Origin: Alistipes sp.
GTDB lineage: Bacteria; Bacteroidota; Bacteroidia; Bacteroidales; Rikenellaceae
Direction: 5' to 3'
Length of the DNA: 64,000 nt
NCBI GenBank assembly: GCA_017623115.1
Contig: JAGAPT010000017.1
Location: 100,687-164,686, forward strand
Below are positions 10,428 to 47,003 of this stretch, one piece after another. The notes below the pieces were generated by a model. The model ran no database searches. It saw nothing but the letters and a program-made list of their open reading frames with translations, and was not told where the DNA came from. A program made the translations under genes and the position numbers. The number at the start of each line of letters is the position of its first letter. Position 1 is the first letter of the stretch.

Positions 10428-10455
10428 GTGCAAATCCATCTTGTTTGCCTTTTTG

Positions 10456-10543
10456 CGGAGAGGACGAGATTCGAACTCGTGGTACCCTAATCAGGTACGT
10501 CGGTTTAGCAAACCGGTGGTTTCAGCCACTCACCCACCTCTCC
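10456..10543 (-). tRNA. tRNA-Ser (anticodon GCU)
   Basis: An 88-base class II tRNA on the minus strand. The acceptor stem is GGAGAGG/CCTCTCC with discriminator G. The anticodon loop is TTGCTAA, giving anticodon GCU for AGC/AGU serine codons. It has a long variable arm (GTACC...GGTAC) typical of tRNA-Ser, and a T-arm with GAGTTCGAATCTC. The 3' CCA is not encoded, so it must be added after transcription. It has its own promoter and terminator. Confidence 0.95.
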
Positions 10544-12055: not shown

Positions 12056-12340
12056 CTATTTTATCGAAAGCTGTATCGCCACAGCCGTACCTAAAGCAAA
12101 GGGAATACACACGGCCGGTGGTATCAGGTCATGATCGACGCCACACCCATACAGCACCAACAATATCAAAGCCGGCATCATCAGCCCCACGAAGGCTATT
12201 CGCCCCACCTTGCGACGATCCATGCGTCGTTTCTGCTCGGCTGAAAGGCCGTTAATCAACTGCGGAAAAGCCCCCGTCAGGCAGGCACAAAGTGCCAAGA
12301 TACTTGCCGTCAGCAAATAGGTCATAGGCTCTTTTTTCAC
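12056..12340 (-). CDS. Small three-helix inner-membrane protein, function unknown
   Basis: A 94-residue protein I cannot assign to a function. It shows three hydrophobic segments (TYLLTASILALCACLTGAF, VGLMMPALILLVLYGCG and PPAVCIPFALGTAVAIQL) and a short basic loop (KRRMDRRKVGR) that should be cytoplasmic. The longest form starts at a GTG that overlaps the stop of the reactivation gene by four bases (GTGA). An ATG five codons in, at 12325, is an alternative. Its place between the corrinoid-reactivation gene and the DUF4886 hydrolase makes it part of the corrinoid operon. Confidence 0.6.
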   Translation of the reverse strand: MKKEPMTYLLTASILALCACLTGAFPQLINGLSAEQKRRMDRRKVGRIAFVGLMMPALILLVLYGCGVDHDLIPPAVCIPFALGTAVAIQLSIK

Positions 12341-13053
12341 ATCTCGCCCTGCTCACGTGCCACAATCTTGCGATAGATGCAGGTCTTATTCTGGCAAATC
12401 ACACAGCCATAGGCACGACGACGCGCCTTCGTGCCGATACCGATGATACCGCTCACCGATTTAATCGGGTGCATCAGACACGAATTGCTCAACACGATGC
12501 CCGTCGGATTCTCCCCGACAAAGGCAAACAACGCTCGCTGATCGACCAACGGCCAATTGCAGTAGCCCGGGCTGTAGCGATTCGTGATTTTTAATCCGCG
12601 GCCGGCTTGTTCCTCGGCTAGAGCCCGGTGGATACGATCCATGGCGTGCTCCACGGTCATCGACCCGATGGTATCGATGATGTAGGCCTCGAGAAACTCC
12701 CCCTGTTCATTCAGGGCATGTGCCTCATCGGAGAACAATGCACCCGCCGTACACAAAAAGAGAGCCGCCTCTTCGGCCTCTTTCAGGTAGCCACAGACCT
12801 GCACCCCCACCCGAAAATCGTAGCCTTCGACCGTCACGATGCCTGCTGCCGTATCCATGCGCTCGACACGACCGAGCACATAGCCTCCGATCGTCTCCAA
12901 CGTCGATGCCGCAAGTTCGGCCAGCCGCTGTTGCATATAGTGATAAGCAGGATGCTCGACATCTCCCTCCATGTGGAGATGCCGAGCAAGCTCATCGAGC
13001 GAGGGCAAGACCTCGCACAAAGGGTAGCGATAGGTATGGAAACACCTCTCCAC
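12337..13053 (-). CDS. Methionine synthase activation-domain-like protein (putative corrinoid reactivation)
   Basis: About 238 residues. The C-terminal half resembles the cobalamin-dependent methionine synthase activation domain, with the hallmark RYSPGYCNWPLVDQ, close to the RxSxGY motif that binds S-adenosylmethionine there. It ends with a cysteine cluster (CVICQNKTCIYR) that could hold a metal or iron-sulfur centre. In related corrinoid systems such stand-alone proteins are proposed to reduce and re-methylate the inactive Co(II) cofactor. No ATG lies near the junction with the upstream methyltransferase gene, whose stop is at 13058-13060. I chose the GTG at 13053, while the open frame continues to 13161 inside the neighbour. 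The operon context, with corrinoid protein and UROD-type methyltransferase, supports the call. Confidence 0.75.
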   Translation of the reverse strand: MERCFHTYRYPLCEVLPSLDELARHLHMEGDVEHPAYHYMQQRLAELAASTLETIGGYVLGRVERMDTAAGIVTVEGYDFRVGVQVCGYLKEAEEAALFLCTAGALFSDEAHALNEQGEFLEAYIIDTIGSMTVEHAMDRIHRALAEEQAGRGLKITNRYSPGYCNWPLVDQRALFAFVGENPTGIVLSNSCLMHPIKSVSGIIGIGTKARRRAYGCVICQNKTCIYRKIVAREQGEM

Positions 13054-13057
13054 TCCC

Positions 13058-14050
13058 CTATTTATTATAGGCCTCAACCGCACCAAAGAAGGCCTCAAGA
13101 TTGGCCTCGGGCACAGCAGGAGGCAGGTCACAACCCGACGAGATGACAAAGTTCTTGGCACCCCGTGTCTTCTCCAGCAGATCGGTCGTAGCAGCGGCCA
13201 CCTGTTCGGGGGTTCCCTGCTTGAAAATGCCCACCGGATCCAGATTACCCATCACAAGCATATGCTCGGGCACCTCGGTCAGAGCCTGCGGGATATCAAC
13301 CAGGTTGCCGAAGTGCATTGCAGCAGCCCCCGTTTCGACCATGGCACCGGTACACTGTCCCGTATTACCGCAGTTGTGCAGAATCACCGTGAAGTCATCA
13401 TCCTGCACGGCATCGACAATCTGCTTCACATAGGGTGTAGCATACATCTGGTGGTCTTCGTTCGAAAGCAGACCGGCAGCCGGCTCGGCCATCACCACGC
13501 CGGCGACACCCGTTGCCTTCAAGGCCTTGCAATAGTCAATGAGGAAGGCCGTACACTTATCGAGCAGGGCCATAATGACATCCGGCTCGATGTAGATGGC
13601 CACCATAATCTCACTCATGTCGTACAGACGACCGGCCAACGAGAAGGGGCCGATACAGCCTGCCAACACCGGCCGGTCGGTGATATGTTCCGCAGCCAAG
13701 CGATTGGCTTTAAGGTATTCGGGCACACGACCGGCATCGAGCGATGGCACCTGCAACGCCTCCACCGAGGCTGCATCCGACACCAAGCGTTCGGTAACGG
13801 TCGGAATCTCCTCCTCGGGAATCAGAATCTTTGCACCGAAGGCCTCGGCCTCGACCGTCAAGTCCATAATCACCGTGCAGGCAGCCGAAGGATAACGCTC
13901 GGCCAGCGCCTTGATGGCAGCGAAGTGCACTTCGCCATCGGTTACGGCTTCACGCACCGTCTTACCCACATACTCGATACCCGGGTGGGTCATAATCGGG
14001 AGGGCAATGCGCTTCTCCGATGCCAACACCTCCTCAATCCACTTTTTCAT
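13058..14050 (-). CDS. UROD-family corrinoid methyltransferase (MtaA/MtbA/CmuA-like)
   Basis: A 330-residue (alpha/beta)8 barrel of the uroporphyrinogen decarboxylase superfamily in its methyltransferase branch. Zinc ligands typical of MtaA/MtbA-type enzymes are present: His225 and Cys227 in LHNCGNT, and Cys307 in SSGCDLPP. Zinc activates a thiol acceptor (coenzyme M in methanogens) or, in other members, the methyl donor. True HemE is unlikely because of these ligands and because the gene is paired with a corrinoid protein. It begins 12 bases after the corrinoid-protein stop and is followed 4 bases later by the reactivation gene. It may move a methyl group between the corrinoid and its final acceptor, or from a methyl donor to the corrinoid; sequence alone does not decide. 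Confidence 0.85.
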   Translation of the reverse strand: MKKWIEEVLASEKRIALPIMTHPGIEYVGKTVREAVTDGEVHFAAIKALAERYPSAACTVIMDLTVEAEAFGAKILIPEEEIPTVTERLVSDAASVEALQVPSLDAGRVPEYLKANRLAAEHITDRPVLAGCIGPFSLAGRLYDMSEIMVAIYIEPDVIMALLDKCTAFLIDYCKALKATGVAGVVMAEPAAGLLSNEDHQMYATPYVKQIVDAVQDDDFTVILHNCGNTGQCTGAMVETGAAAMHFGNLVDIPQALTEVPEHMLVMGNLDPVGIFKQGTPEQVAAATTDLLEKTRGAKNFVISSGCDLPPAVPEANLEAFFGAVEAYNK

Positions 14051-14062
14051 GGGTGTAATGGC

Positions 14063-14734
14063 TTATGCGTTCAGGAAACTCTCCAGAATCTTGATGTCGT
14101 CCTGCGGGTCGGCAGCATAGCCGTCGGCACCAATCTCGGCAGCAAACTCGGCCGACACAGGAGCACCTCCGACGATGAACTTCGTCTCGGGATACTTCTC
14201 ATGCACCTGGTCGATGATGGTCTTCATGTTGGTCATCGTCGTCGTCAACAGCGCCGACAGACCTACATAGGCATTCGGATGCTCATCGAGGGCAGCAATA
14301 AATTTCTCGGCCGAAGCATCCACTCCCAGATCGACAACCTCCCAGCCGGCACCCTCGACCATCATGCAGACGAGGTTCTTGCCGATGTCGTGCAGGTCGC
14401 CAAAGACCGTACCGATGATAAACGTACCCTTACGCTGCACCTCACCCGACGAGAAATAGGGCTTGATATAGGTCAAAGCGGCATTCATCGCCTTGGCCGA
14501 GAGCAACATCTGTGGCACAAAAACCTTTCCCTCGGTGAATTTCTGCCCCACACAAGTCATGGCCGGAATCAACGCCTCGTCCATAATCTGCGACGGAGCA
14601 ATACCGGCTGCAAGAGCCTGCTGAGTCAATTCCTGGGCACCATCCTCGCCACGCATCTGAGGCGGATAGGGCGACGCTGCATTGATTTTTCCGAACTCAA
14701 CGCAGGTAAACAATTTTTGCAATAATTCGTTCAT
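14063..14734 (-). CDS. Corrinoid (B12)-binding methyltransferase protein, MtaC/MtbC/MttC-like
   Basis: A 223-residue two-domain corrinoid protein. Residues 1-95 form the helical cap domain, and residues 100-223 the Rossmann-like B12-binding domain. The cobalt-ligand motif DxHxxG is intact as Asp113-Leu-His115-Asp-Ile-Gly118. The other B12 signatures are present too, for example VVDLGVD, GLSALLTTTM and FIVGGAPV. It shuttles a methyl group between two methyltransferases. It is the first gene of a five-gene operon and has a near-consensus promoter at 14775-14806. It is divergent from a glycan-degradation operon that contains a second UROD-like protein, a likely partner. Confidence 0.93.
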   Translation of the reverse strand: MNELLQKLFTCVEFGKINAASPYPPQMRGEDGAQELTQQALAAGIAPSQIMDEALIPAMTCVGQKFTEGKVFVPQMLLSAKAMNAALTYIKPYFSSGEVQRKGTFIIGTVFGDLHDIGKNLVCMMVEGAGWEVVDLGVDASAEKFIAALDEHPNAYVGLSALLTTTMTNMKTIIDQVHEKYPETKFIVGGAPVSAEFAAEIGADGYAADPQDDIKILESFLNA

Positions 14735-14774
14735 AGTTTATTTGGGTATTGTTGTTTGCTACACTAAAAACATG

Positions 14775-14806
14775 CGAATATACAAAATTTTGCAGAGTTT
14801 TTCAAA
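14775..14806 (-). promoter_or_regulatory. Promoter of the corrinoid methyl-transfer operon
   Basis: Minus-strand TATATTCG (14775-14782, one mismatch to TAnnTTTG) with TTTG (14803-14806) at 20 bases. It lies about 40 bases upstream of the corrinoid-protein ATG. No cobalamin-riboswitch-like structure was recognised in the leader, which is too short for one. Confidence 0.65.
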
Positions 14807-14852
14807 CATTTTTGCCGAAAGGTTATCGCATTTGATTTTTCAATCCCCTGCC

Positions 14853-14884
14853 GTTGTTTTTTCACACGCAAATCGTTATATTTG
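14853..14884 (+). promoter_or_regulatory. Promoter of the glycan operon
   Basis: TATATTTG (14877-14884) with GTTG (14853-14856) at 20 bases, one mismatch from consensus. The expected transcription start is about 20 bases before the ATG at 14911. It is 46 bases from the opposing promoter, so one regulator could control both operons. Confidence 0.7.
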
Positions 14885-14910
14885 TTCGATTTTAGCCTAA
14901 CCTAACCGCT

Positions 14911-16689
14911 ATGACCCGAAAACTCGCCCTCTTACTCCTGTTCGTGGCCGCACCATTGGTGGTATCGGCAGGAACGATTTATGTGTCGCCCAAGGGCAAT
15001 GACCAGGCTGATGGTTCGCAACAAAGTCCGCTCCGCACGCCTCACGCAGCCTTGAAAATGGCGCGCGAATGGCGTCGTATCGGTGACCCTCGTATCGAGG
15101 GGGGCATTGAGATTCGTTTTCAGGAGGGCATCTACACGCTCGACCGTCCGCTCTACATCCGACCCGAAGACAGCGGAACGGCCGATTCGCCAACCACGCT
15201 GCGTGCCGAAGAGGGACAAGAGGTTGTCTTCAGCGGAGGCACTCCGCTGGCTTCGTTCCGCCGCGCAGACGGCTATTGGGTTGCCGAGGCACCCAGGATA
15301 CATGGGCGGCCACTCCTCGTGCGCGAGTTATGGGGTGGCACGCTGCGCCGAGCCACGCAATTCGGAGCCGAAGAGATGGCCCGCATGATTGCCTTTGACC
15401 CTGCGACCGAAAGCATCACCATTCCCCGCCCCGCCATCGAGGGGTTAGAACAGGCCGAGGGGCTCGAAATGTTGGTGCATCAACGCTGGGCGGTGGCCAT
15501 TCTGCGCATCAAAGCCATCCGTTACGAGGGGGAGCAAGCCGTCGTCACGTTCCTCAACCCGGAGAGCTATTTGGAGTTTGCCCACCCGTGGCCCCAACCG
15601 GTCATTGACGGCGAGCGTGGCAACTCCTCCTTCATGCTCATGAACGCCAAAGCACTCCTCGATGAAAATGACGAGTGGTGGCAGGACTATGCTACAGGGC
15701 GCATCTATACGCTTCGTAAACCTCGGACAACCATCTATGCGCCCCATCTGGAGCGATTGATGACTATCGAGGGAGCCCGACAGAAAGCCGTACAGCATCT
15801 TCGGTTCGAAGGCATTCGCTTTGCCCATACGGCCTGGAATCGACCCATGGAGCAAGGTCATGTTACCTTGCAGGGCGGCTTCGCCTTTATCGACGGCTAT
15901 AAACTCTACGAGAAGGAGGGCTTTGCGTGGGATCCCAACCTCGAAAATCAGGCCTGGCTCGAACGCCCCGAGGCGGCTATCTCGGTGCGCAATGCCTCGC
16001 ACATCACCTTCGAGGGGTGTTCGTTCCACGAATTGGGGGCAACGGGTCTCGATTTGGTCTCCAACGTACACCACACCTCGGTACGCGGTTGTACGTTCCA
16101 GCGTATTGGCGGCACAGCGTTGTTGGCCGGCTCATTCGGGGAGGGAGCAACCGAAGTTCACATTCCGTTCGATCGAATTGGCGACCCAACGGATTTCTGT
16201 TCTCACCTGCACATCGAGGCCAATCGTATCTACGACGTTACCTGCACCGATTGGGGTGCGGTGGCCATCGGATGTGGCTATGTTCGTGACACGGAGATTG
16301 TCGACAACCACATCAATAAGGTCAACTATTCGGGTATCTGCGTCGGCTGGGGATGGACCAAGCACGACACGGGCATGCACCGCAACCGCATTGCCCGCAA
16401 TCGGGTCGAGAACTACGCCCGTCAACTCTATGATGCCGGTGGCATCTACACCCTCTCGAATCAGCCCGGTTCGGTCATCGAGCAAAACATCGTTTCGAAG
16501 CCCTACCCGGCACCTTATGCCACCAACCATCGCGGATTCTGCATCTACCTCGATGCGGCTACCGACGGCTACACGATTCGCAACAATTGGTTGGAGGTCG
16601 AAGCGTCCATCGGCTTCAACAACCCCGGACCGGCCGTGCGCTTCGAGGGTACAAATGGACCGGAAACGCCACTTCCGCAACAGCAATAA
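14911..16689 (+). CDS. Exported right-handed parallel beta-helix protein (putative polysaccharide-active enzyme)
   Basis: A 592-residue secreted protein with a signal peptide (LALLLLFVAAPLVVSAG). The mature N-terminus starts IYVSPKGNDQADGS, the usual opening of Bacteroidetes beta-helix enzymes. The C-terminal half shows repeated rungs such as HITFEGCSFHELGATGLDL, TSVRGCTFQRIGGTALL and IVDNHINKVNYSGICVG. Such folds occur in polysaccharide lyases, glycosidases and epimerases, and I cannot name a family. It is the first gene of the operon with GH31, a UROD-like protein, a symporter and GH105. The most likely role is cleavage of an acidic or branched polysaccharide outside the cytoplasm. Confidence 0.8.
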   Translation: MTRKLALLLLFVAAPLVVSAGTIYVSPKGNDQADGSQQSPLRTPHAALKMAREWRRIGDPRIEGGIEIRFQEGIYTLDRPLYIRPEDSGTADSPTTLRAEEGQEVVFSGGTPLASFRRADGYWVAEAPRIHGRPLLVRELWGGTLRRATQFGAEEMARMIAFDPATESITIPRPAIEGLEQAEGLEMLVHQRWAVAILRIKAIRYEGEQAVVTFLNPESYLEFAHPWPQPVIDGERGNSSFMLMNAKALLDENDEWWQDYATGRIYTLRKPRTTIYAPHLERLMTIEGARQKAVQHLRFEGIRFAHTAWNRPMEQGHVTLQGGFAFIDGYKLYEKEGFAWDPNLENQAWLERPEAAISVRNASHITFEGCSFHELGATGLDLVSNVHHTSVRGCTFQRIGGTALLAGSFGEGATEVHIPFDRIGDPTDFCSHLHIEANRIYDVTCTDWGAVAIGCGYVRDTEIVDNHINKVNYSGICVGWGWTKHDTGMHRNRIARNRVENYARQLYDAGGIYTLSNQPGSVIEQNIVSKPYPAPYATNHRGFCIYLDAATDGYTIRNNWLEVEASIGFNNPGPAVRFEGTNGPETPLPQQQ

Positions 16690-16718
16690 CAAAAGAACTT
16701 AATTACCTATATACACAC

Positions 16719-18974
16719 GTGAAACAGACTAATTATCATCTTTTCGATTTCCTCGACTTCGATCCCGATTTACAGGTAAACGAGTCGTTGTGGAAAGCCT
16801 ATAAACCCACGGCCGTCGAGGTGGTGGAGGGTGAGATTCACATCACCGTTCCCTTCCAGAAACAGCAGTTGGCAGCCGACATGGCGGCCGATACGACCAC
16901 AGCTCCGGTCAACCATACGTTGCGCCTGCGCGCCTATGGCGATCAAATCCTGCGCCTGCAGCTCTCGGCCGAGGATATCGCCCCTCGTGAAACCTCCGAG
17001 ATGCTCGATATCGCTCCTACGTTGCAGCGTGAGCCCCTGACGGCAAACCTGCTCGACAACGTATGGCAGTTCCACGACACGAAGGGCGTGTTGCGTGGCG
17101 AGTTGAATCTCCGCGAGGCCGAAATCGACTTTTGGAGCGACCTGCAACCGGCCCCCCAATCGACCATCGACCTGACGCTCTATCCCGATGGAAAACATTC
17201 GAAGCCGGTGCGTCTGTCGGCCTATGATCACTTCTCGCCCCCGCGTTACGATGCCCTTCCGTTAGCCTACTGCGAGAAGGAGGGCAAACCCGAACGGGCT
17301 ACACTCTCGTTCGAGTGCAAGGCTGACGAGTGCTTTGTCGGCACGGGTGAGCGTTTCACGAAGATGGACCTCGCCGGCCACACCTTCCAACTCAAGAATC
17401 AGGATGGGCAGGGCGTCAACAACCGCCGTGCCTACAAGAATATTCCGTTCTACCTCTCGAGCCGCATGTATGGTGTCTTCTACCACACCAGCGACTACTG
17501 CAAACTCTCGCTGGCCGACCATTCGACCCGTTCGGTGCAGTTCCTGGCCGATGGTGCCGAGGTCGATGCCTTCCTCATCGGCGGTGCCACCCCCGAGCGT
17601 ATCCTCTACAACTACCGCTCGCTGACCGGCTTCCCGACCCTGCCTCCGCTGTGGAGTTTCGGTATCTGGATGAGCCGCATGACCTATTTCAGTGCCGATG
17701 AGGTAGAGGATATTTGCGCCCGTCTGCGTCGGGAGCACTATCCCTGCGATGTCATTCACCTCGACACGGGTTGGTTCCGCACCGACTGGCTCTGCGAATG
17801 GAAATTCAACCCCGAGCGTTTCCCCGATCCGAAGGGATTCCTCACCCGTTTGAAAGATGATGGTTACCGTGTATCGCTCTGGCAGCTGCCCTATGTAGCG
17901 CAGGGTGCTGAGCAGATTGACGAGGCGAAAGCCAACCGCTATATCGCCCCGCTGACCAAGGAGCAGGAGCGCAGCGAGGGGTCGAATTTCTCGACACTGG
18001 ACTATGCCGGCACCATCGACTTTACCTATCCGAAGGCTACGGAGTGGTACAAGGGTTTGCTGAAGGAGTTGCTCGATATGGGCGTGGTCTGCATCAAGAC
18101 CGACTTTGGCGAAAATATCCACATGGATGCCGATTACTACGGCATGAAGCCCGAACAACTCAACAACCTCTATGCGTTACTCTACCAAAAAGCCGCTTAC
18201 GAGATTACGAAGGAGGTAACGGGCGACGGCATCGTCTGGGCGCGTGCAGCCTGGGCCGGATGCCAGCGTTATCCGCTCCATTGGGGTGGCGACTCGGCCT
18301 CGACATGGGACGGCATGGCCGGCTCGATTAAGGGAGGTCTGCACTTCGGCTTGTCGGGATTCGGCTTCTGGAGCCACGATGTACCGGGGTTCCATTCGCT
18401 GCCCAACTTCATGAACTCGCCGCTCGACGAGAAGGTCTATGTACGCTGGTCGCAGTTCGGTGTCTTTACCTCGCACATGCGCTACCACGGCTCGTTCAAG
18501 CGTGAGCCTTGGCACTACCCCGCCATCGCCCCCATCGTGAAGCGTTGGTGGAAATTGCGCTATCGCCTGATGCCCTACATCATGGAGGAGGCCAAGGTGG
18601 CTACCGAAACGGGCTATCCGATGTTACGAGCCCTGATGATGCACCACCCCGAAGACCGCACCGTATGGCACATCGACGACGAGTATTACTTCGGCTCGCA
18701 GTTCCTCGTTGCCCCCGTGATGAACGACGAGGGGGTGCGCGATATCTATCTACCCGAGGGTCAATGGGTCGATTTCTTCACGGGCGAACGCCATGCGGGA
18801 GGTCGCTGGTTACGCGATGTCGAAGTACCGCTTGAGCGCATGCCCGTCTTTGTACGCGAGGGGGCACAAATCGCTCTCTACCCTGATGAGGAGGTCGAGT
18901 GCACCGACCAGATGGATCTTGCGAAGGCCGAAATCCTCACCATCGACAACACATTCCACGGATTTAAGTTCTAA
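16719..18974 (+). CDS. Glycoside hydrolase family 31 (alpha-xylosidase/alpha-glucosidase-like)
   Basis: A 751-residue GH31 enzyme. The open frame extends back into the upstream gene, but the only start codon after that gene's stop is the GTG at 16719 (reading Met-Lys-Gln-Thr-Asn-Tyr). The catalytic nucleophile is Asp462 in CIKTDFGENI and the acid/base is Asp525 in WGGDSAST. The KTDFGE context is the one seen in YicI-type alpha-xylosidases. There is no signal peptide, so it should act in the cytoplasm on short oligosaccharides taken up by the neighbouring symporter. It begins 29 bases after the beta-helix gene and ends 7 bases before the UROD-like gene. Exact substrate (alpha-xyloside, alpha-glucoside or alpha-galactoside) is not decided by sequence. 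Confidence 0.93.
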   Translation: MKQTNYHLFDFLDFDPDLQVNESLWKAYKPTAVEVVEGEIHITVPFQKQQLAADMAADTTTAPVNHTLRLRAYGDQILRLQLSAEDIAPRETSEMLDIAPTLQREPLTANLLDNVWQFHDTKGVLRGELNLREAEIDFWSDLQPAPQSTIDLTLYPDGKHSKPVRLSAYDHFSPPRYDALPLAYCEKEGKPERATLSFECKADECFVGTGERFTKMDLAGHTFQLKNQDGQGVNNRRAYKNIPFYLSSRMYGVFYHTSDYCKLSLADHSTRSVQFLADGAEVDAFLIGGATPERILYNYRSLTGFPTLPPLWSFGIWMSRMTYFSADEVEDICARLRREHYPCDVIHLDTGWFRTDWLCEWKFNPERFPDPKGFLTRLKDDGYRVSLWQLPYVAQGAEQIDEAKANRYIAPLTKEQERSEGSNFSTLDYAGTIDFTYPKATEWYKGLLKELLDMGVVCIKTDFGENIHMDADYYGMKPEQLNNLYALLYQKAAYEITKEVTGDGIVWARAAWAGCQRYPLHWGGDSASTWDGMAGSIKGGLHFGLSGFGFWSHDVPGFHSLPNFMNSPLDEKVYVRWSQFGVFTSHMRYHGSFKREPWHYPAIAPIVKRWWKLRYRLMPYIMEEAKVATETGYPMLRALMMHHPEDRTVWHIDDEYYFGSQFLVAPVMNDEGVRDIYLPEGQWVDFFTGERHAGGRWLRDVEVPLERMPVFVREGAQIALYPDEEVECTDQMDLAKAEILTIDNTFHGFKF

Positions 18975-18981
18975 CCACGCT

Positions 18982-20046
18982 ATGAAAACTTGGAAAACAA
19001 ATTGGGAGGAGTCGAAGCAGCACTACCTCGATTGGTGGCAACACAAAGGGTGCGTCGTCACGATGTGGGAGCATTTCCAGCAGGGGGTAACCCCGCATGC
19101 GCCGATTGCGGCACCTGCGCCCGCTGCGGATTGGAACCAGCGTTGGTTTGACCCCGCATGGCGTTCAGCCGAACTCGACCACTATGTGGCTCATAGTTCG
19201 CTCAAAGCCGATATGATTCCCGTGGCCAACACCCAGCTCGGGCCGGGCTCATTGGCGGCCATTCTGGGCGGTCGTCTCGAGGGAGGCCCCGACACGATCT
19301 GGATTCATCCGGCCGATGCGGTCGGTGAGGAGATTCGCTTCGACCCCGAGAACGAGGCTTACAAACTCCACAAGGCTCTGCTCAAAGCCTGCAAAGAGCG
19401 TGCGCAAGGCAACTATTATGTCGGCATGCCCGACCTGATGGAGGGCCTCGACGTGCTGGCTGCCATTCGTGGCACGGACAACGTACTGCTCGACACGATG
19501 ATTAACCCCGAGTTGCTTGATGCGCAATTGCAGCAGGTAAACGACATCTACTTCAAGGTCTACGACGAGTTGTACGACATCGTGCGCGAGGATGACGGCA
19601 TGGCCTTCTGTTACTTCTCGATTTGGGGACCGGGCCGTGTCAGCAAACTGCAGAGCGACATCTCCATCATGATTTCGGAGGAGGATTATCGTCGCTTCGT
19701 ACAGCCCTACATCCGTCAGCAGTGCCAAAAATTGGATTACACGCTCTACCACCTCGATGGCGTGGGTGCCATTCGACACCTCGATGCCCTGCTCGAGATT
19801 GAGGAGCTCGACGCCATCCAATGGACCCCCGGTGTGGGTGAGCCGCAGGGGGGCGACAAGAAGTGGTACGACCTCTATCGTCGCATCAAGGCCGGCGGGA
19901 AATCGATTGAAGCCAACTGGATTACCCTCGACGAGCTGGAGCCCCTGCTGGACAATGTCGGTGCCGAGGGTATGCTCCTCTCGATGGATTTCCACCACGA
20001 AGCGGAGGTCGATAAGGCACTAAAGATTGTTGAACGCTATCGCTAA
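18982..20046 (+). CDS. UROD-like protein, putative methyltransferase I of a corrinoid system
   Basis: A 354-residue protein of the uroporphyrinogen decarboxylase superfamily, starting at the ATG at 18982, 7 bases after the GH31 stop. The barrel layout is recognisable, but the H-x-C zinc motif of MtaA-type enzymes is replaced by YHLDGVGAIRHL (His257-x-Asp259), and the third cysteine is missing; that region reads SMDFHHEAEV. It is thus neither an ordinary HemE nor an ordinary MtaA. Its position among glycan enzymes, next to the divergent corrinoid operon, suggests it moves a methyl group from a methylated sugar to the corrinoid protein. That role is inference. Confidence 0.75.
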   Translation: MKTWKTNWEESKQHYLDWWQHKGCVVTMWEHFQQGVTPHAPIAAPAPAADWNQRWFDPAWRSAELDHYVAHSSLKADMIPVANTQLGPGSLAAILGGRLEGGPDTIWIHPADAVGEEIRFDPENEAYKLHKALLKACKERAQGNYYVGMPDLMEGLDVLAAIRGTDNVLLDTMINPELLDAQLQQVNDIYFKVYDELYDIVREDDGMAFCYFSIWGPGRVSKLQSDISIMISEEDYRRFVQPYIRQQCQKLDYTLYHLDGVGAIRHLDALLEIEELDAIQWTPGVGEPQGGDKKWYDLYRRIKAGGKSIEANWITLDELEPLLDNVGAEGMLLSMDFHHEAEVDKALKIVERYR

Positions 20047-20085
20047 CTAAACTACCAACCTGGACTCACAACCTAACCAACACCT

Positions 20086-21669
20086 ATGCTACACCTTTTA
20101 CAAATCAGTTCCGAGCAATTACACCTGCTCGACTGGTCGATTTTGGTCGGCTACTTCATCGTGCTGCTGGCCATCGGCGTCTGGGCCAGCACAAAACGCC
20201 AGAAGGGAAGTTCGCTCTTCTTGGCCGAGAACTCGTTGCGCTGGCATCACATCGGTTTCTCGATGTGGGGCACGAACGTAGGCCCCTCGATGCTCATCGC
20301 ATCGGCATCAGCCGGTTTTACGACCGGTATCGTATCGGGTAACTTCGCCTGGTATGCCTTCATCTTCATCTGCCTGCTGGCCTTTGTCTTTGCCCCACGC
20401 TATCTGGGAGCCAAGGTCTCGACCCTGCCCGAATTTATGGGTAAACGCTTCGGACAATCGACCCGCAACATCCTGGCGTGGTACACGATGGTGACGATTC
20501 TCATCTCGTGGCTGGCCCTCACGCTCTTTGCCGGCGGCGTGCTGATTCGTCAGGTCTTCGATGTTCCGATGTGGCAATCGGCCCTCATCCTGCTGGCTAT
20601 CTCGGCCTTCTTCACGATGCTGGGAGGATTGAAGGCTGTGGCCTACACGAATGTCTACCAGATGTTGCTTCTGATTTTCGTCTCGGCCACCATCGTCATC
20701 GTCGGTCTCTACAAGGTTGGCGGTGTAGATGGGCTCATTGCCGCTACGCCCGAAGATTATTGGGTGCTCTTCCGCCCCAATTCGGATGTCGATTTCCCCT
20801 GGTTGCCGATTATCTTGGGCTACCCGATTTCGGGTGTCTGGTTCTGGTGTACCGACCAATCGATGGTGCAACCTGTCTTGGCAGCTCGCAGTCTGAAAGA
20901 GGGACAACTCGGCACAAACTTCACGGGGTGGCTCAAAATCCTTGATGTACCCCTCTACATCCTGCCCGGTATCATCTGCTTTGCCCTCTACCCCACGTTG
21001 GCAAATCCCGACGAGGCCTATATGACGATGGTCAAGAACCTCTTCCCGATTGGTATGGTCGGATTGGTATTGGCCGTACTGACTGCAGCCCTTGTCAGCA
21101 CCATCGGCTCGGCACTCAATGCCTTGAGTACGGTCTTCACGATGGACATCTATGTCAAGAAGTTTAACCCCAAGGCCTCGAACCGCGAGATTATCCGCAT
21201 GGGGCAACTCGTTACGGTAGTCGGTGCCATCATCTCGGTATTGATTTGCATCGCCATCGACTCAATCAAGGGGCTCAATCTTTTCAATGTCTTCCAGTCG
21301 GTTTTGGGCTTCATCGCACCCCCGATGACCGCCGTCTTCCTCATGGGTGTCTTCTGGAAACGTGCCACGAAGCGTGCTGCCAACCTGGCCCTGACGCTCG
21401 GAACGCTCATCAGCATCGGCACGGGTGTCATGTACCTCTGGGCATGGCCCGAGGGGTTGGCCAAGCCGCACTTCATGCTGCTCTCGTTCTACCTCTGCGT
21501 ATTTATCCTCATAGCCATGACACTCATCTCGCTCTTCGACCACTCAAAGCCCGAGAGCGGCACAACAACCTTCGACAAGGTGGAGCGTGCACATACCGGT
21601 CGTATGGTAGCCGGTCTGTGGATTGCCCTGATTGTGGTCATGGTAGGCCTTTATATCTTCTTTAACTAA
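20086..21669 (+). CDS. Sodium:solute symporter (SSS family, SGLT-like)
   Basis: A 527-residue inner-membrane symporter with about 13-14 hydrophobic segments, from WSILVGYFIVLLAIGVW to the C-terminal GLWIALIVVMVGLYIFF. Family signatures include MWGTNVGPSMLIASASAGF near the first helices and a long central motif around FWCTDQSMVQPVLAARSLKE. These resemble sugar-transporting members. It lies 39 bases after the UROD-like gene and 22 before GH105, so it should import the mono- or oligosaccharide product of this operon using sodium. Substrate identity is unknown. Confidence 0.93.
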   Translation: MLHLLQISSEQLHLLDWSILVGYFIVLLAIGVWASTKRQKGSSLFLAENSLRWHHIGFSMWGTNVGPSMLIASASAGFTTGIVSGNFAWYAFIFICLLAFVFAPRYLGAKVSTLPEFMGKRFGQSTRNILAWYTMVTILISWLALTLFAGGVLIRQVFDVPMWQSALILLAISAFFTMLGGLKAVAYTNVYQMLLLIFVSATIVIVGLYKVGGVDGLIAATPEDYWVLFRPNSDVDFPWLPIILGYPISGVWFWCTDQSMVQPVLAARSLKEGQLGTNFTGWLKILDVPLYILPGIICFALYPTLANPDEAYMTMVKNLFPIGMVGLVLAVLTAALVSTIGSALNALSTVFTMDIYVKKFNPKASNREIIRMGQLVTVVGAIISVLICIAIDSIKGLNLFNVFQSVLGFIAPPMTAVFLMGVFWKRATKRAANLALTLGTLISIGTGVMYLWAWPEGLAKPHFMLLSFYLCVFILIAMTLISLFDHSKPESGTTTFDKVERAHTGRMVAGLWIALIVVMVGLYIFFN

Positions 21670-21691
21670 CCCTCGAAAATCTAACGAAACA

Positions 21692-23044
21692 ATGAAACGA
21701 TTGACACTTACCACCCTGCTGGCTGCTTTGGCATTGACCGCCTGCACAACACAGCCTGCCGAGCAACCGCTCTCCCAACAGATGGTCGAGGCGCACGGTC
21801 TCGGCGATTTCTACTGCAACCGCCATTACCAAACACAACTGTCTGAAACCGGCTGGGACTATGTATCGGGCTTGGTAGCAGGCGCTGTACTCAAAACATG
21901 GGTACTCTATCCCGAGCAGCAGGCCTACTACGATGCCGTCAAGGCCTTTGCCGACTTCAGCCTCAACGAGGATGGCACCTTCATCAAAACCCTCAAAGGG
22001 GGCAATGCTCTGCGTCCGAGTAACATCGACGACCTGGCTGCCGGCAACATCTATTTTGCCCTCTACCGTGAGGAGCTGCGCAAGGGAAATACCACCGATG
22101 CCGAGCGTTATCGTGCCGCTGCCACGATGATTCGCAACAAACTCAAATATGACCACAGCCGTATTCCCGAGGGGATGCCCGGAGCCGGTGGCTTCTACCA
22201 CAAGGCGGTCTATCCGAATCAGATGTGGCTCGATGGTCTCTACATGGGCTCGCCCGTCTACGCCATGTGGCAAGCCGCGTTTGGCGCGGAAAACGAGGCC
22301 GAGAATCTGGAAAGCTGGAACGACATCGCCCACCAATTCAAGACCATTCATCAATACACCTACGATGCCGAGAAGCAACTCAACTACCACGCTTGGTCGG
22401 CCGAGCCGGAGAACGCCGACTCGTTCTGGGCACGTCGTGAAGAGCCTTTCAAAGGGTGCAGTCCCGAGTTCTGGGCACGAGGCATGGGCTGGTACTTTGC
22501 CGCCTTGGTCGATGTGCTGGAGGTAATGCCCAAGGAGCATGCCGACTACGCTGCGATGGTTGCTATCTACAACGAGGTGGCTGCCGGTCTGGCTCGTTGG
22601 CAGGATAAGGAGTCGGGCGTATGGTATCAGTTGTTGCAGTATGGTGCCGATGTAACGGCTGACGGTATCGGCGACACGGTACAAGGCCAGGTGTACAATG
22701 TCGGCACGCAGCCGAACTACCTGGAGGCTTCGGCATCGTGTATCTTCACCTACGCCTACCTGAAAGGTCTGCGTTTAGGCCTGCTAGATGAGGCAACCTA
22801 TGCCCCCATAGCCGAGAAGGCCTATCAAGGTATTCTCGACACCTTCATCACCGAGCAGGAGGGTAAGATGGCCATTGTGCAGACCTGCGCCTCGGCCGGT
22901 TTGGGCCCCGCCAAGAACCTCTCACGCACAGGTACCATCAACTACTACCTGGCCGGCAAAGATGTCGGCATCACGCAAAATGAGGGCAAAGCCGTCGGCA
23001 CCTTCATCCTCGCCTCGCTCGAATACGAGATGCGCAAGATGTAA
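21692..23044 (+). CDS. GH105/GH88-like unsaturated uronyl hydrolase, lipoprotein
   Basis: A 450-residue lipoprotein (signal LLAALALTACTTQ) with an (alpha/alpha)6-barrel glycosidase domain. Motifs match GH105 unsaturated rhamnogalacturonyl/glucuronyl hydrolases: NIDDLAAGN with the likely catalytic Asp, YPNQMWLDGLYMGSPVYAMW, and FWARGMGWYFAALVDVLE. These enzymes hydrate and remove the 4,5-unsaturated uronic acid left by a polysaccharide lyase. Its presence implies that a lyase acts upstream, perhaps the beta-helix protein of the same operon. It is the last gene and is followed by a shared bidirectional terminator. Confidence 0.9.
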   Translation: MKRLTLTTLLAALALTACTTQPAEQPLSQQMVEAHGLGDFYCNRHYQTQLSETGWDYVSGLVAGAVLKTWVLYPEQQAYYDAVKAFADFSLNEDGTFIKTLKGGNALRPSNIDDLAAGNIYFALYREELRKGNTTDAERYRAAATMIRNKLKYDHSRIPEGMPGAGGFYHKAVYPNQMWLDGLYMGSPVYAMWQAAFGAENEAENLESWNDIAHQFKTIHQYTYDAEKQLNYHAWSAEPENADSFWARREEPFKGCSPEFWARGMGWYFAALVDVLEVMPKEHADYAAMVAIYNEVAAGLARWQDKESGVWYQLLQYGADVTADGIGDTVQGQVYNVGTQPNYLEASASCIFTYAYLKGLRLGLLDEATYAPIAEKAYQGILDTFITEQEGKMAIVQTCASAGLGPAKNLSRTGTINYYLAGKDVGITQNEGKAVGTFILASLEYEMRKM

Positions 23045-23063: not shown

Positions 23064-23098
23064 AACAAAGAAGCAGCCTTCGGGGCTGCTTCTTTGTT
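23064..23098. terminator. Bidirectional terminator between convergent operons
   Basis: A 15-bp perfect stem (AACAAAGAAGCAGCC / GGCTGCTTCTTTGTT) with a TTCGG loop. T-rich sequence on both outer sides lets it work for the GH105 operon and for the polyene operon, whose last stop codon (23097-23099) overlaps the stem. Confidence 0.9.
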
Positions 23099-24395
23099 AA
23101 TGGCGCAAATCGACAAACTTGACCACCTTGCGGCTCATCGGTGGCATCTGCTGCCGAGCAATCAGTTCGACCGGCTCGAAGCGAATATCGGGGGCTACAC
23201 GCACCTTCGAGCGGAAAATATCCTTAATCTGCTTGATAAAGGCCTCCGAATGGTTGCGACTGCCAATCTTAATTTGAATCTGATCCGTCCCGAGGTCGTT
23301 CGTGAAGACCTCGACCAGATAGTTCTCCACCTCGGGGATATTATCCAAAATATCGAACAGCGCAGGCGGATAGAGCGTCGTACCTTTGAACTTAATCATC
23401 TGCCCCTTACGGCCGATGACCGAACTGAGACGAGCCGTCTGACGACCACAACGACATGGCTCGGAGTAACGGATACAGATATCGCCGGTCTTAAAGCGCA
23501 GCAACGGCATTCCCTCCACGCCAAGCGTCGTAATGGTCACCTCGCCGGGGGTACCATCCGCTACGGGCTGATGCTGTTCGTCGAGCAACTCCACGATAAT
23601 CAAATCGGCCGGGATATGCCCACCGCAATGGTACTCACACTCGGTAAACGAGGCCTGCATCTCGGTCGAAGCATAGGTCGAAAAGAGTTCGAGCGAGGGC
23701 CAGCGACGGACAATACGTTGCCCCAGCGTTGTCAGTTCGCCATCGGGTGTACGCAGTGCCTCGCCAATACAAATGGCGCGACGCAACGAACTTGCATTGC
23801 AATCAAAGCCGTGTGCATCGGCAAAATCAATCAGTTTCATCAGGAACGAGGGAACCACCATACAAGCGGTCGATTCGACACGTCGTATCGTATCCCACTG
23901 CAACTCGGGAATGCCATTCCCGACACGCACGACACCACACCCCAATTCACGGGCTCCGAGGAAGTAGGCCAAACCGGCCATGAAACGACGGTCGATAGTC
24001 GTCATGAGTTGCATCACATCCTCGCGCGTGCAACCGGCCATCGTAAAGGAGCAGGCCTCGTTGTAGGCCAGGCGTTGCAGGTCGCCCTCGGTCAGGGCAA
24101 AGGTAACCGGCTCTCCGAGTGTACCCGAGGTCGTCACATAATCGATGATTTCACTTCTCGGCACGCATATAAAGTCGGTGTTATGTTGCTGCAACTCCCG
24201 CTTGGTAGTTACAGGCAATCGTTGCAAATCGGCCAGCGTACAAATCGACTGTGGGTCAATCTGCGCTTCCGCAAACATACGTTGATAGAAGGGCGATTTG
24301 GTAGTTAGATAGGCAACCGTTTCGCGCAAACGTTCCTCCTGAAAGGCCTGAATCTCGGCAGGCGAGAGTGCATGCAAATGACTATTTCGTATCAT
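23097..24395 (-). CDS. PaaK-like acyl-activating (AMP-forming) ligase of the aryl polyene cluster
   Basis: A 432-residue member of the phenylacetate-CoA ligase branch of adenylate-forming enzymes. The core motifs are YVTTSGTLGEPV (phosphate-binding loop), YASTEMQ, the acidic hinge LLRFKTGDIC and GRKGQMIKFKGTTLYP near the C-terminus. In aryl polyene clusters an enzyme of this type activates 4-hydroxycinnamate, made by the ammonia-lyase at the other end of the operon, for loading on the acyl carrier protein. It overlaps the C45 acyltransferase gene by 14 bases and is the last gene of the operon. A benzoate- or phenylacetate-type substrate is possible but less likely here. Confidence 0.85.
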   Translation of the reverse strand: MIRNSHLHALSPAEIQAFQEERLRETVAYLTTKSPFYQRMFAEAQIDPQSICTLADLQRLPVTTKRELQQHNTDFICVPRSEIIDYVTTSGTLGEPVTFALTEGDLQRLAYNEACSFTMAGCTREDVMQLMTTIDRRFMAGLAYFLGARELGCGVVRVGNGIPELQWDTIRRVESTACMVVPSFLMKLIDFADAHGFDCNASSLRRAICIGEALRTPDGELTTLGQRIVRRWPSLELFSTYASTEMQASFTECEYHCGGHIPADLIIVELLDEQHQPVADGTPGEVTITTLGVEGMPLLRFKTGDICIRYSEPCRCGRQTARLSSVIGRKGQMIKFKGTTLYPPALFDILDNIPEVENYLVEVFTNDLGTDQIQIKIGSRNHSEAFIKQIKDIFRSKVRVAPDIRFEPVELIARQQMPPMSRKVVKFVDLRH

Positions 24396-26070
24396 ATCGT
24401 TTCAGTTTTTTCTCGATAGCAAGGCGTTGTGCCACACGCGGTATCTCCTTACCGAGGGCTGTACGCCACATCTGTAACGCCTCATCCATCCGTGTATGTG
24501 CTCGATAGTAATCCCCTACCAGGTCATAGGTCTCATAGAAACAGGGATTCAAAGCGATATACTCCCGCACGAAATTTTCAGAGAGCATCACTCGGTTTGC
24601 TGTAGCCTCCTTCAACTGCTTCGTGCGACGACGATAGGAGCCGATGCGCGGATACTCATCGGCCAAAAAGGTGGTATCGGCACCGATTATACGCTCCTCA
24701 TCGTTCCACGAATGGCGTTGTGGCAACGTATCGGCAAAGACCTCATCCAAATCGTAGCAAAGCATGGCACCCGCCTGCCAGGGGGATGTCGATACCCACA
24801 TGCGACGAGCCATCGGCTCGAACAGGACTGCGTGGTGCGCAATCGACTGATTGAGTGCCATTTCATTCGCCAGGCCAATATCCTCACCCCCCAACCCATA
24901 TCGGTTGCGCAAGATGGATGCACCGCGTTCGGGCGTCAGCGGAGCCTCCTCGGTGAGCAGTTCGGTCAATCGAGCATGCCGATAACGGCTATCGCTCACG
25001 GCTATATTCTCTATATTATAGGGGTCGGCTGCAAACGTATGCGACTGGTAGTGATTCGTCACGGCCAACGATTGCCCATGTCCGCGATACAACCCGATAC
25101 GTTCCGGGCTCTTCTCAATAACGGCTGCAGCCCCATCGGCCGCTGAACCTATCAAGAATGATTCGGAGACAAACGTGCGGTGTTCGGAGGCGATACGATA
25201 GGCCTCATCAATCGTCGAGGCATACTGCAAAATATGCCGCGCCAGCAACGATATCGGCAGGGCCGAGGAGGTCGGCAAGGCACCTTTGGCGGCATTGAGG
25301 GTCACGGTCAAGCCCTTCTCGTTCATACCCGAAACGACACCCAGCATGCCGGGCCAGGTAATCGACGCAAAGCGGTAACCCTCGTCGGGTTCCACGAACA
25401 ACACCAGTTTCTGTCGTGCAAACTCATCACCCACATAGAAATCGAAGTTGCGACCCACAAGGAGCGTCTCATCGGCCGTTTCACCTCCCCATGCGGCAAA
25501 CGAGCTGCATCCGACCAACATATACTCCTGCATCGTATGCCCAATATCATGGGCTGCATGGTAGTTCAGTTGTCGTTCATAGGGCGTTCCGAAGAGATCG
25601 TAATCGTGGGTACAAAAGTGAGCCATAGCGGCAATCTCCCGGCGATACTCTTCCGGGATATGACGGGCCATATGGCGATTGAAAACCGCAATGCAGGCGC
25701 GCAGGAAGCGCAAGTAACGCTCCGAGGGAATCATGTCACGAATCTGTTCGACAAAGACCTGCTCCTGTCGATAAATCAGGTCGTGGGCCATGGCACCGAG
25801 GGCGGCACCTCGCTCCACAGCCGTTCCGCCAACCTTGGCCTCCCACAAACCGTAACGATTCAGTAGCAGAGTGTTTTCTCCACATCGACGCAACGAGTCG
25901 CGCTCTTCGGAGAGCAGGTAATCTGTTGCCCGAAGACGCAACTGCGGCTCTTGAAAGTCGGCTCGGGTATATAGCCACAGAAACCAGCCGATGAAGAACA
26001 ACCCAACAACGAAGATGACCAACAAGCAAAGAGCCACCCCCTTCAGCACCCATTTCATCTCTTTACGCAT
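24382..26070 (-). CDS. Membrane-anchored C45-family (Ntn) acyltransferase/hydrolase
   Basis: A 562-residue protein starting at the ATG at 26070 (MRKEMKWVLKG), which overlaps the preceding stop by 8 bases. A signal anchor (LCLLVIFVVGLFFIGWFLWLY, residues about 13-34) is followed by a domain of the acyl-CoA:6-aminopenicillanate acyltransferase (peptidase C45) family. The Ntn nucleophile is probably Cys188 in VGCSSFAAW, at the start of the GCSS-GRNFDF region. Supporting motifs are LLVGRNFDFY and GMNEKGLTVTLNAAKG. In a polyene pathway it could form or break the ester or amide joining the polyene to its anchor; this role is inferred from cluster context. The C-terminal 100 residues look helical (TPR-like). 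Confidence 0.8.
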   Translation of the reverse strand: MRKEMKWVLKGVALCLLVIFVVGLFFIGWFLWLYTRADFQEPQLRLRATDYLLSEERDSLRRCGENTLLLNRYGLWEAKVGGTAVERGAALGAMAHDLIYRQEQVFVEQIRDMIPSERYLRFLRACIAVFNRHMARHIPEEYRREIAAMAHFCTHDYDLFGTPYERQLNYHAAHDIGHTMQEYMLVGCSSFAAWGGETADETLLVGRNFDFYVGDEFARQKLVLFVEPDEGYRFASITWPGMLGVVSGMNEKGLTVTLNAAKGALPTSSALPISLLARHILQYASTIDEAYRIASEHRTFVSESFLIGSAADGAAAVIEKSPERIGLYRGHGQSLAVTNHYQSHTFAADPYNIENIAVSDSRYRHARLTELLTEEAPLTPERGASILRNRYGLGGEDIGLANEMALNQSIAHHAVLFEPMARRMWVSTSPWQAGAMLCYDLDEVFADTLPQRHSWNDEERIIGADTTFLADEYPRIGSYRRRTKQLKEATANRVMLSENFVREYIALNPCFYETYDLVGDYYRAHTRMDEALQMWRTALGKEIPRVAQRLAIEKKLKRYDTK

Positions 26071-31394: not shown

Positions 31395-32571
31395 GCGCAC
31401 CTCCTCGCCGACACAGCGTCATTACAAACCAAGCAACAATCGTTACCACCACACCGGCCAACAGTGCCAATGCGATGCTTCCCACCACATATTGCGTAAG
31501 CGATTGCGCAATCTCCTCGAAGGAGATGCGCTGGAACGAAAAACCATTCTCCAACCCCAGCACCCATGCCCCCATCACGACGCTGCCATAGAGGATCAAG
31601 GGTATCATGGGCGGAATACTGATATTCGAGCAGACAACAGCCACCACCCGATTCAGGCGCAGCAGATGCGCCGTAGCCAACGCAAAGACCATCTGATAGC
31701 CCCACAACGGGATAATGCCACAGAAGACACCCCACCCTATCGAAAGAGCCATCCGCAGATTGCTCTCCGGACTACGCAACACCTCTCGTTCAAAGAAATG
31801 CCGAATATTTTCCCGCGTCAGAGCCCGCACAAACCGCCACGGATAATAGACCAGCAGGGCATAGAGCACCAACACCGTATTGAGCAGGCTGATGCGCGTA
31901 AAATCCTGCAAAGGACGGAAGTGTGATACGCGCTCCCCCTCGGGTGGATAATAGACCTGTATCGGGATATTTTCCACACGAACTCCTCGCCAGGCCGCAC
32001 GCACGATAATCTCGACCTCAAACTCATAACGGCTTGTGAGCAAGCGTATATTGCGCAGCTTCTGTACAGGATAGAGGCGGTAACCCGACTGGGTATCCTC
32101 CAACCGCAGACCGGTCTCGACCCGATACCAGAAATTCGAAAAACGATTGGCAAAGGTATTTTTCGAGGGCATATTCTCGGCCGTAAGGTTGCGTGCACCA
32201 ATCAGCAAAGAGCCGGGAATCTCCTCAATACGCTCCACAAAGCGCGGAATATCCTCGGCATAATGCTGACCATCGGCATCGAGTGTCAAGGCGTAATCAA
32301 ACCCCTCGTCGGCGGCATATTGCAACGCCAGACGTAGCGCGTGTCCCTTCCCTCGATTCTTCGGATAACTGATGCAACGTATGCCCTCAAGGGCAGCAAT
32401 ACGTTCGGGGGTACGATCCGTCGAACCATCATTGACAACCAACACCTCATCGGCATAGCGACGTACCGCAGCAACCACCTCGACGATGGTTCCTTCGTTG
32501 TTATAGGTCGGAATCACCACCAGGCACTTCAACCAGCGTAATGCCTCACGATATCTTGCCAAATCCTGCAT
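31387..32571 (-). CDS. Glycosyltransferase family 2 fused to a DUF2062 membrane domain
   Basis: A 394-residue protein. The N-terminal ~240 residues form a DPM1-type GT2 domain with LVVIPTYNNEGTI, VVNDGSTD and the metal-binding LDADGQH. The C-terminal ~150 residues are a DUF2062 membrane domain with several helices (IGWGVFCGIIPLWGYQMVF, ALALLAGVVVTIVAWFVM). Such enzymes usually transfer a sugar from a nucleotide or polyprenyl donor to a lipid acceptor at the inner membrane. Together with the deacetylase in the same operon, this hints that the polyene is attached to a sugar-bearing lipid. It starts 1 base after the upstream dehydratase stop. Confidence 0.9.
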   Translation of the reverse strand: MQDLARYREALRWLKCLVVIPTYNNEGTIVEVVAAVRRYADEVLVVNDGSTDRTPERIAALEGIRCISYPKNRGKGHALRLALQYAADEGFDYALTLDADGQHYAEDIPRFVERIEEIPGSLLIGARNLTAENMPSKNTFANRFSNFWYRVETGLRLEDTQSGYRLYPVQKLRNIRLLTSRYEFEVEIIVRAAWRGVRVENIPIQVYYPPEGERVSHFRPLQDFTRISLLNTVLVLYALLVYYPWRFVRALTRENIRHFFEREVLRSPESNLRMALSIGWGVFCGIIPLWGYQMVFALATAHLLRLNRVVAVVCSNISIPPMIPLILYGSVVMGAWVLGLENGFSFQRISFEEIAQSLTQYVVGSIALALLAGVVVTIVAWFVMTLCRRGGAHE

Positions 32572-46047: not shown

Positions 46048-46059
46048 ACCACATCGCAC

Positions 46060-46983: not shown

Positions 46984-47003
46984 CAACAAAACAGCATAAC
47001 AAC

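Follow-up and report, generated by a model that had tools for sequence, protein, structure and literature searches.

A divergent pair of operons in an Alistipes genome as a candidate system for oxygen-free O-demethylation of glycan-derived sugars

The window, as we call the whole stretch of DNA analyzed here, comprises 64,000 nucleotides of an Alistipes sp. draft genome of 2.19 Mb (assembly GCA_017623115.1, contig JAGAPT010000017.1, positions 100,687 to 164,686 of the forward strand). It carries two operons that diverge from a shared promoter region of 176 bp (14735-14910). The minus-strand operon encodes a corrinoid protein (CORR), a UROD-family methyltransferase (MTBA) and a stand-alone reactivation protein of the methionine synthase (MetH) type (ACT), while the plus-strand operon encodes a GH141 glycosidase, a GH31 glycosidase, a second UROD-like protein (UROD2), a sodium:solute symporter and a GH88/GH105-type protein. 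The two operons are read as one system because UROD2 and CORR are fused in relatives, are encoded side by side and co-occur at the level of whole genomes. We give slightly better than even chances to the proposal that this system anaerobically O-demethylates a methyl sugar derived from glycans and feeds the methyl group into methionine synthesis.

Scanning the named genomes of bacteria and archaea identified 271 relatives of UROD2, and all locus counts given here refer to the best 80 of these 271 (numbers beginning with L denote loci, those beginning with G genomes). The best 80 include Phocaeicola vulgatus ATCC 8482, Bacteroides faecis, many Prevotella and herbivore-gut Alistipes genomes, the nearest relatives being found in genomes labelled Alistipes or Rikenellaceae. 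Six of the 80 loci are contigs already among the whole-genome loci, and many of the stretches end at contig ends, with 43 retaining at least 9.5 kb on both sides. Genes in these loci were located by codon-model calling and tblastn. CORR was found in the same locus as UROD2 in 78 of 80 cases; of the two misses, L098 is a contig of only 3.2 kb and in L069 CORR is located approximately 11 kb away, beyond a two-gene insertion. In 66 loci UROD2 and CORR form a single open reading frame (ORF), either as a UROD2-CORR fusion (11 loci, 564-612 aa) or with a homocysteine S-methyltransferase domain (HcyMT) between them (55 loci, 875-1074 aa). Three of these fusions (L117, L132 and L136) run to a contig end, and L098 holds a UROD2-HcyMT form truncated by the contig end. 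In L044 and L149 all of the parts that were found, MTBA being absent from the former, lie on one strand.

The homocysteine domain (PF02574) follows UROD2 in 56 of the 67 fused or cut cases. In all 56 long forms blastp aligns this domain across 303 residues or more and the GGCCG motif is retained, and Pfam confirmed the assignment in each of the eight long fusions scanned (E 2e-87 to 8e-74). None of the same eight contains Pterin_bind, the methyl-folate domain. That the middle domain might be another UROD was rejected upon its identification as PF02574. The fusion in P. vulgatus is of the short form, in which Pfam detects only the corrinoid domains. L150, from a distant genome of the same order, instead carries a separate HcyMT gene of 294 aa (PF02574 E 1e-72), followed on the same strand by ACT (PF02965 E 2e-13), GH31, UROD2, an oxidoreductase (recognized by eye) and the symporter; GH141 lies upstream of this set. 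By its domain content the long fusion is a predicted methionine-synthase-like protein in which UROD2 replaces the folate module, and because PF02574 is fused with UROD2 in the place of that module, homocysteine is the likely methyl acceptor.

Within a family sample of 150 genomes, UROD2 was detected in 10, the Alistipes genome of the window included, and all 10 hold a stand-alone CORR. A stand-alone corrinoid protein was also present in 16 of the 140 genomes without UROD2, so that corrinoid-holding genomes number 26 of 150 by hand count (25 at E <1e-40, plus G005, which is cut by a contig end). The hypergeometric value for co-occurrence is 4.5e-9, uncorrected for kinship. At the level of the order, the UROD2 profile matches 15 of 393 genomes, five of which contain distant relatives only. 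Six genomes in which the UROD2 stretch is cut or lacks CORR all hold a corrinoid protein. The proposal of a single system, made in a sequence-only reading of the window, is thus borne out by adjacency (78/80), fusion (66/80) and genome-level co-occurrence (10/10), and the test of co-occurrence in related genomes which that reading called for was positive. A quickly computed tree of 54 UROD2 rows, with some long branches, places the fused forms in one group with 100% SH-aLRT support. The window UROD2 falls with other Alistipes rows beside two unfused proteins from Phocaeicola-labelled genomes (97% for the nine) and apart from two other Rikenellaceae, a position which suggests horizontal transfer of the system.

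The glycosidases and the symporter are frequent partners of UROD2, GH31 being found nearby in 53 of the 80 loci, GH141 in 51 and the symporter in 51 (47 at 35% identity or more), compared with 49 for MTBA and 48 for ACT (42 at 35% identity or more). Among the 43 loci with full flanks, at 35% identity or more, the numbers are CORR 42, GH31 35, symporter 35, GH141 32, MTBA 31 and ACT 28. GH31 is tied to UROD2 beyond adjacency: in 12 genomes chosen for having no GH31 in the flank, 11 have an orthologue elsewhere with a main stretch 68-74% identical, two of these being split or having a weaker N-terminal piece. The GH88/GH105-type gene, in contrast to its proposed role as a conserved part, is a local addition, only 2 of the 80 loci having one close to UROD2.

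The coordinates of the genes and of the 176-bp gap were given correctly in the sequence-only reading, and its domain calls were largely reproduced. CORR (14063-14734, minus strand) matches both the B12-binding (PF02310) and B12-binding_2 (PF02607) domains and has the motif GDLHDIG, an intact DxHxxG as described. MTBA (13058-14050, minus strand; PF01208 E 9e-60) has the His/Cys/Cys ligands attributed to it, H225, C227 and C307 being invariant in 20 of 20 aligned sequences, and is a candidate methylcorrinoid:thiol methyltransferase. ACT, an ORF listed at 12337-13161 on the minus strand with a true start probably near 13060, was likewise confirmed as resembling a methionine synthase activation protein (PF02965 E 5e-6; PDB 1j6r, listed as methionine synthase, E 2.4e-6). 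On the plus strand the set of beta-helix protein, GH31, UROD-like protein, sodium symporter and GH105-type protein was upheld by Pfam, with the UROD-like member recognizable by profile-profile comparison only. The beta-helix protein (14911-16689) is a GH141 glycosidase (PF21231, the GH141 insertion domain, E 5e-48) that matches PDB 5mqp, the BT_1002 enzyme, with 471 bits (E 6.5e-140) over residues 17-585 of 592. GH31 (16719-18974, most likely starting at 16719; PF01055 E 6e-86) is alpha-xylosidase-like, scoring 1280 bits with PDB 5f7c, 370-389 bits with YicI, and 495 bits with the NCBIfam alpha-xylosidase model PRK10658, under its cut-off of 606. The symporter (20086-21669; PF00474 E 6e-54) is a candidate importer of a methylated glycoside, and the operon ends with the GH88/GH105-type protein (21692-23044; PF07470 E 1e-69), a lipoprotein as judged by eye. 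At Rfam gathering score a tRNA was the sole match in the window, with no riboswitch or other RNA family in 14735-14910, and promoter and terminator scans of the window gave counts near those of shuffled sequences.

UROD2 (18982-20046, plus strand) is the candidate methyltransferase I, which would move a methyl group from an O-methyl sugar to the corrinoid protein. It has no match in Pfam (E up to 10) or NCBIfam (E up to 0.001) and no meaningful sequence match in PDB, and hhalign gave no useful match with the narrower MTBA profile. Against a broader set of UROD (PF01208) proteins of the family, hhalign returned a probability of 96.4% (E 1e-9, 137 columns). By this profile-profile match UROD2 is placed as a remote member of the UROD superfamily, in line with the membership claimed for it earlier. 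H257 and D259 are invariant in 40 of 40 aligned sequences and align with the His-x-Cys of thiol-type enzymes, and D336 is a candidate third metal ligand. According to Kountz and Balskus (PMC10418091), His-Cys-Cys marks sulfur and selenium methyltransferases, and in O-methyltransferases one or both of the Cys are exchanged for carboxylates or for residues that do not bind. By this rule the predicted H257-x-D259 site is better suited to an oxygen substrate than to a thiol, which would put UROD2 on the O-demethylating side and MTBA on the thiol side.

In the mechanism we propose, the secreted GH141 would free an O-methylated di- or oligosaccharide, the symporter would take it up, and a cytoplasmic GH31 would split off the methylated sugar. 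Release outside, import and cleavage inside are plausible because GH141 has a signal peptide whereas none is visible in GH31 (both judged by eye), which is therefore probably cytoplasmic. UROD2 would then transfer the O-methyl group to the Co(I) of CORR, with which it is physically paired in the fusions of relatives, and the methyl-corrinoid would hand it to homocysteine to yield methionine. For this last step, Prevotellaceae and some other Bacteroidales would use the HcyMT domain of the same polypeptide, and the Alistipes-like organism of the window probably MTBA. ACT, judging from its family, would rescue corrinoid oxidized to Co(II) with S-adenosylmethionine and a reductant, as in methionine synthase.

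The predicted methyl acceptor differs from that of known corrinoid O-demethylases, in which a methyltransferase II passes the methyl group to tetrahydrofolate. In the draft genome of the window, PF00809 is matched only by one FolP-size and one MetH-size frame, leaving no separate folate methyltransferase; tetrahydrofolate was rejected as the acceptor there, and the scheme was revised to, probably, homocysteine. RACE (PF14574) gave 0 matches in this genome, the control search being positive in 1 of 14 genomes, a Methanosarcina. With no folate methyltransferase, no RACE and PF02574 of MetH size only, MTBA is the most likely route of the methyl group to a thiol in the window organism, and by analogy with the fused relatives homocysteine would be our best guess for that thiol. 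The reactivator, judging from its domain match, is predicted to be of the methionine-synthase type and not of the ATP-dependent RACE type.

The identity of the sugar was approached through GH141 and GH31. The review PMC10154630 reports that BT_1002 frees 2-O-methyl-D-xylose-alpha-1,3-L-fucose from rhamnogalacturonan II (RG-II). The gene order in P. vulgatus is GH141, GH31, UROD2-CORR, symporter and then ACT and MTBA, matching annotations published for BT_0338-0343 of B. thetaiotaomicron: BT_0338 is a GH141 (PMC8264420), BT_0339 an alpha-xylosidase (PMC10434189), and BT_0340, BT_0342 and BT_0343 are named 'Mta' corrinoid proteins (PMC8941943). Judged from those annotations, B. thetaiotaomicron appears to carry the cluster. 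The system might accordingly constitute the missing last step in the use of RG-II side chain A, with GH141 freeing 2-O-methyl-xylose-alpha-1,3-fucose, the symporter importing it, GH31 splitting it and UROD2 demethylating the 2-O-methyl-xylose, whose methyl group would enter methionine. We offer this as a tentative possibility that we would sooner expect to fail than to hold. The example first put forward, a 4-O-methyl uronate freed by GH105, was dropped as a general substrate and falls because GH105 is no conserved part of the system (2/80 loci). What does survive of the earlier substrate model is that UROD2 works with a corrinoid protein, as seen from fusion, adjacency and co-occurrence, and that GH31, GH141 and the symporter accompany it frequently.

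Several observations weigh against this account of sugar demethylation. B. thetaiotaomicron is reported to cut 21 of 22 RG-II linkages, the exception being that in 2-O-Me-Xyl-alpha-1,3-Fuc, which accumulates (PMC7939467); this species appears nonetheless to carry the cluster, which counts against an RG-II substrate. G213, G257, G529 and G155 have no CORR in the UROD2 stretch, and because their corrinoid protein is located elsewhere and is 44-47% identical to the query it may serve another system. No GH31 was present in the examined stretch of 27 of the 80 loci, and G549 (locus L114) contains no GH31 above 40% identity. Other CORR/ACT/MTBA cassettes of the family (sister cassettes) also occur beside plain neighbours, namely a tRNA synthetase and an AraC regulator in L050 and a glutamine synthetase in L061. 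UROD2 is not recognized by Pfam, and which residue serves it as third metal ligand is uncertain; furthermore some O-demethylases are zinc-free (PMC13222342), making metal ligands a weak guide to substrate. PF02574 occurs in the window genome and in P. vulgatus only in a MetH-size frame, so that homocysteine as acceptor is extrapolated for these two. Among the 40 tri-fusion loci that have more than 6.5 kb to the right, 25 still carry MTBA, a persistence for which the simple scheme offers no account. Lastly, 12 of the 14 genomes checked contain a MetH-size frame, so methionine supply would not be the sole need served.

The methyl donors could alternatively be methoxylated aromatic aglycones of plant glycosides, the glycosidases merely exposing the aglycone. 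GH78 rhamnosidase is a usual enzyme for flavonoid glycosides, and five of the 80 loci have a gene of this family ahead of UROD2, on its upstream side (one member scanned). Methoxyphenol O-demethylases with methyltransferase I, corrinoid protein and methyltransferase II are moreover a known anaerobic kind (PMC13222342). The frequent partners are instead a BT_1002-like GH141 and a YicI-like GH31, four of the five GH78 loci include an L-fucose isomerase family gene, and a pectin cluster lies upstream on the window's own contig, leaving aglycones an unlikely donor. Similarly unlikely is a sulfur or selenium methyl compound, for example dimethylsulfide, methanethiol, methylthioadenosine or dimethylselenide, as donor of UROD2. 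The homocysteine domain fused in relatives would suit such a donor, and MTBA has the His-Cys-Cys site of sulfur and selenium methyltransferases (PMC10418091), but UROD2 shows H-x-D where H-x-C would be expected, is linked to GH31, GH141 and the symporter, and belongs to a genome in which no RACE was detected.

Methanol from pectin methyl esters would be a very unlikely donor. A pectinesterase and other pectin genes are indeed present just upstream of the window (L060), but a cytoplasmic GH31 and a symporter, needless for methanol, are frequent partners, and the known methanol:corrinoid methyltransferase, MtaB, belongs to another family. The published names of the B. thetaiotaomicron proteins imply a methylamine or trimethylamine system, a reading that is highly improbable with glycosidases for partners: no methyltransferase of the locus reaches the cut-off of an NCBIfam amine methyltransferase model, and CORR and MTBA have only sub-cut-off NCBIfam matches, to models of several substrates. 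To the two operons being unrelated neighbours, as their divergent arrangement here and in most close Alistipes relatives might suggest, we give almost no credence, because the fusion of UROD2 and CORR in 66 of 80 relatives refutes it and all parts found share one strand in L149 and, MTBA aside, in L044.

The predicted sugar demethylase can be set beside several known systems. Full-length MetH consists of homocysteine, folate, corrinoid and reactivation modules. PF02574, the corrinoid domain and a MetH-type reactivation protein are all represented across the UROD2 family, and the product is probably methionine as well. The differences are that UROD2 stands in place of the folate (Pterin_bind) module, that the homocysteine domain is absent from the window locus (it is present in 56 of 80 relatives and in L150), and that the SAM-dependent reactivation of MetH appears to be represented by a separate protein, ACT (PF02965). 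With the corrinoid O-demethylases of acetogens the system shares a UROD-superfamily candidate for methyltransferase I, a stand-alone corrinoid protein, a second methyltransferase and a reactivator, whereas the predicted donor is a sugar rather than an aromatic, the predicted acceptor homocysteine or another thiol rather than tetrahydrofolate, and the reactivation protein of MetH type rather than RACE. Type 1 mlp clusters, as described by Kountz and Balskus (PMC10418091), likewise combine a His-Cys-Cys UROD methyltransferase, a corrinoid protein and a reactivator with no folate methyltransferase. Their Mlp2 and Mlp3 are both His-Cys-Cys proteins, while the window locus has a single one, lacks Ram/RACE and has glycosidases as partners. 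The folate-independent methionine synthases MesA-MesC (PMC7857596) resemble our prediction in the direct flow of methyl from corrinoid protein to homocysteine; they are MetE-like, unlike the PF02574 domain or UROD protein here, where a demethylase would be the methyl source. RG-II degradation by B. thetaiotaomicron is alike in the GH141 (471 bits with BT_1002) and differs in that 2-O-Me-Xyl-Fuc is reported uncleaved and no demethylation step is described in the part of PMC7939467 drawn on here.

A trio of genes for an aldo-keto reductase, an amidohydrolase and a Zn-dehydrogenase (45115-48020, plus strand; tblastn 61-93% identity) is a possible partner of the system. In the window 22 kb separate it from the system, but in L068, the closest relative, the distance to UROD2 is a few kb at most, and 16-17 of 80 loci have the trio nearby; it may represent an L-fucose oxidation route. 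Six of the 80 loci have a gene of the L-fucose isomerase family close to UROD2 (one member scanned). Two further neighbour clusters considered as fucose-pathway genes were rejected, being phosphoglycerate kinase and a DUF3298 protein (one member each scanned), and these are taken, with EF-G, as chromosomal neighbours. EF-G-like and HemN-like radical SAM proteins are encoded upstream of the fusion in 20-21 loci (e.g. L093, 6562-9943), probably a fixed chromosomal site. In a Prevotellaceae variant (L091, L092, L109 and L143) a GH78 rhamnosidase-family gene is located upstream of the tri-domain fusion, and DHDPS-family, distant symporter and L-fucose isomerase-family genes also accompany this variant (one member per cluster scanned). 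G144 has two large minus-strand ORFs (~961 and ~989 aa) between GH141 and GH31 (L038, 6960-12864).

The sister cassettes adjoin UROD proteins different from UROD2. Glycan-type neighbours are GH92 and GxGYxYP in L064 (73-8461), GH2 in L062 (608-10589) and SusD in L057 (6248-12322); L061, with an MFS transporter as neighbour, and L063 are further examples. The UROD proteins of these cassettes have H-x-C, or H-x-D in L050 and L054, and often a C-terminal His. The genome of the window contains two additional UROD-family genes (G000:C31:5039-5785 and G000:C41:89570-90286), with no corrinoid gene in the surrounding stretches (L058 and L059).

Adjoining ACT in the window is a small protein with weak DUF3784 similarity (12056-12340, minus strand), present in 4 of 80 related loci and probably not essential to the system. 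A tRNA-Ser gene (10455-10543) also adjoins the system, which looks horizontally acquired on the tree. On the other side, 23097-31400 of the minus strand encodes CoA ligase-like, acyltransferase-like and FAD-oxidoreductase proteins and a 1284-aa MMPL-acyltransferase-methyltransferase-like protein, resembling by eye an aryl polyene/flexirubin-type cluster. The pectin cluster upstream of the window on the same contig (L060, 7905-15468) consists of GH28, GH105, a pectinesterase with a GDSL domain and DUF4861.

Many sugars of plants and algae carry protective methyl ethers. For a methyl-galactose the known demethylation route uses oxygen and a P450, and cannot operate in the gut or rumen. Our searches of the open-access literature, partly narrow and with subscription papers outside their reach, found no anaerobic sugar O-demethylase described; the component families are known, and their combination was not found in that literature. 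The fusions of relatives suggest that dietary sugars lose their methyl groups without oxygen and that these groups are used again to build methionine. If true, gut Bacteroidales would convert sugar methyl groups to methionine with B12, and competition for cobalamin would be linked to the use of fibre. If the methyl-donor module of methionine synthase can be exchanged, this would also inform on the evolution of that enzyme. Were the RG-II proposal to hold, a sugar O-demethylase that needs no oxygen would have been assembled on the plan of a methionine synthase, with a plant cell-wall sugar as donor, in a system accessible in the tractable species P. vulgatus and, as BT_0338-0343, B. thetaiotaomicron.

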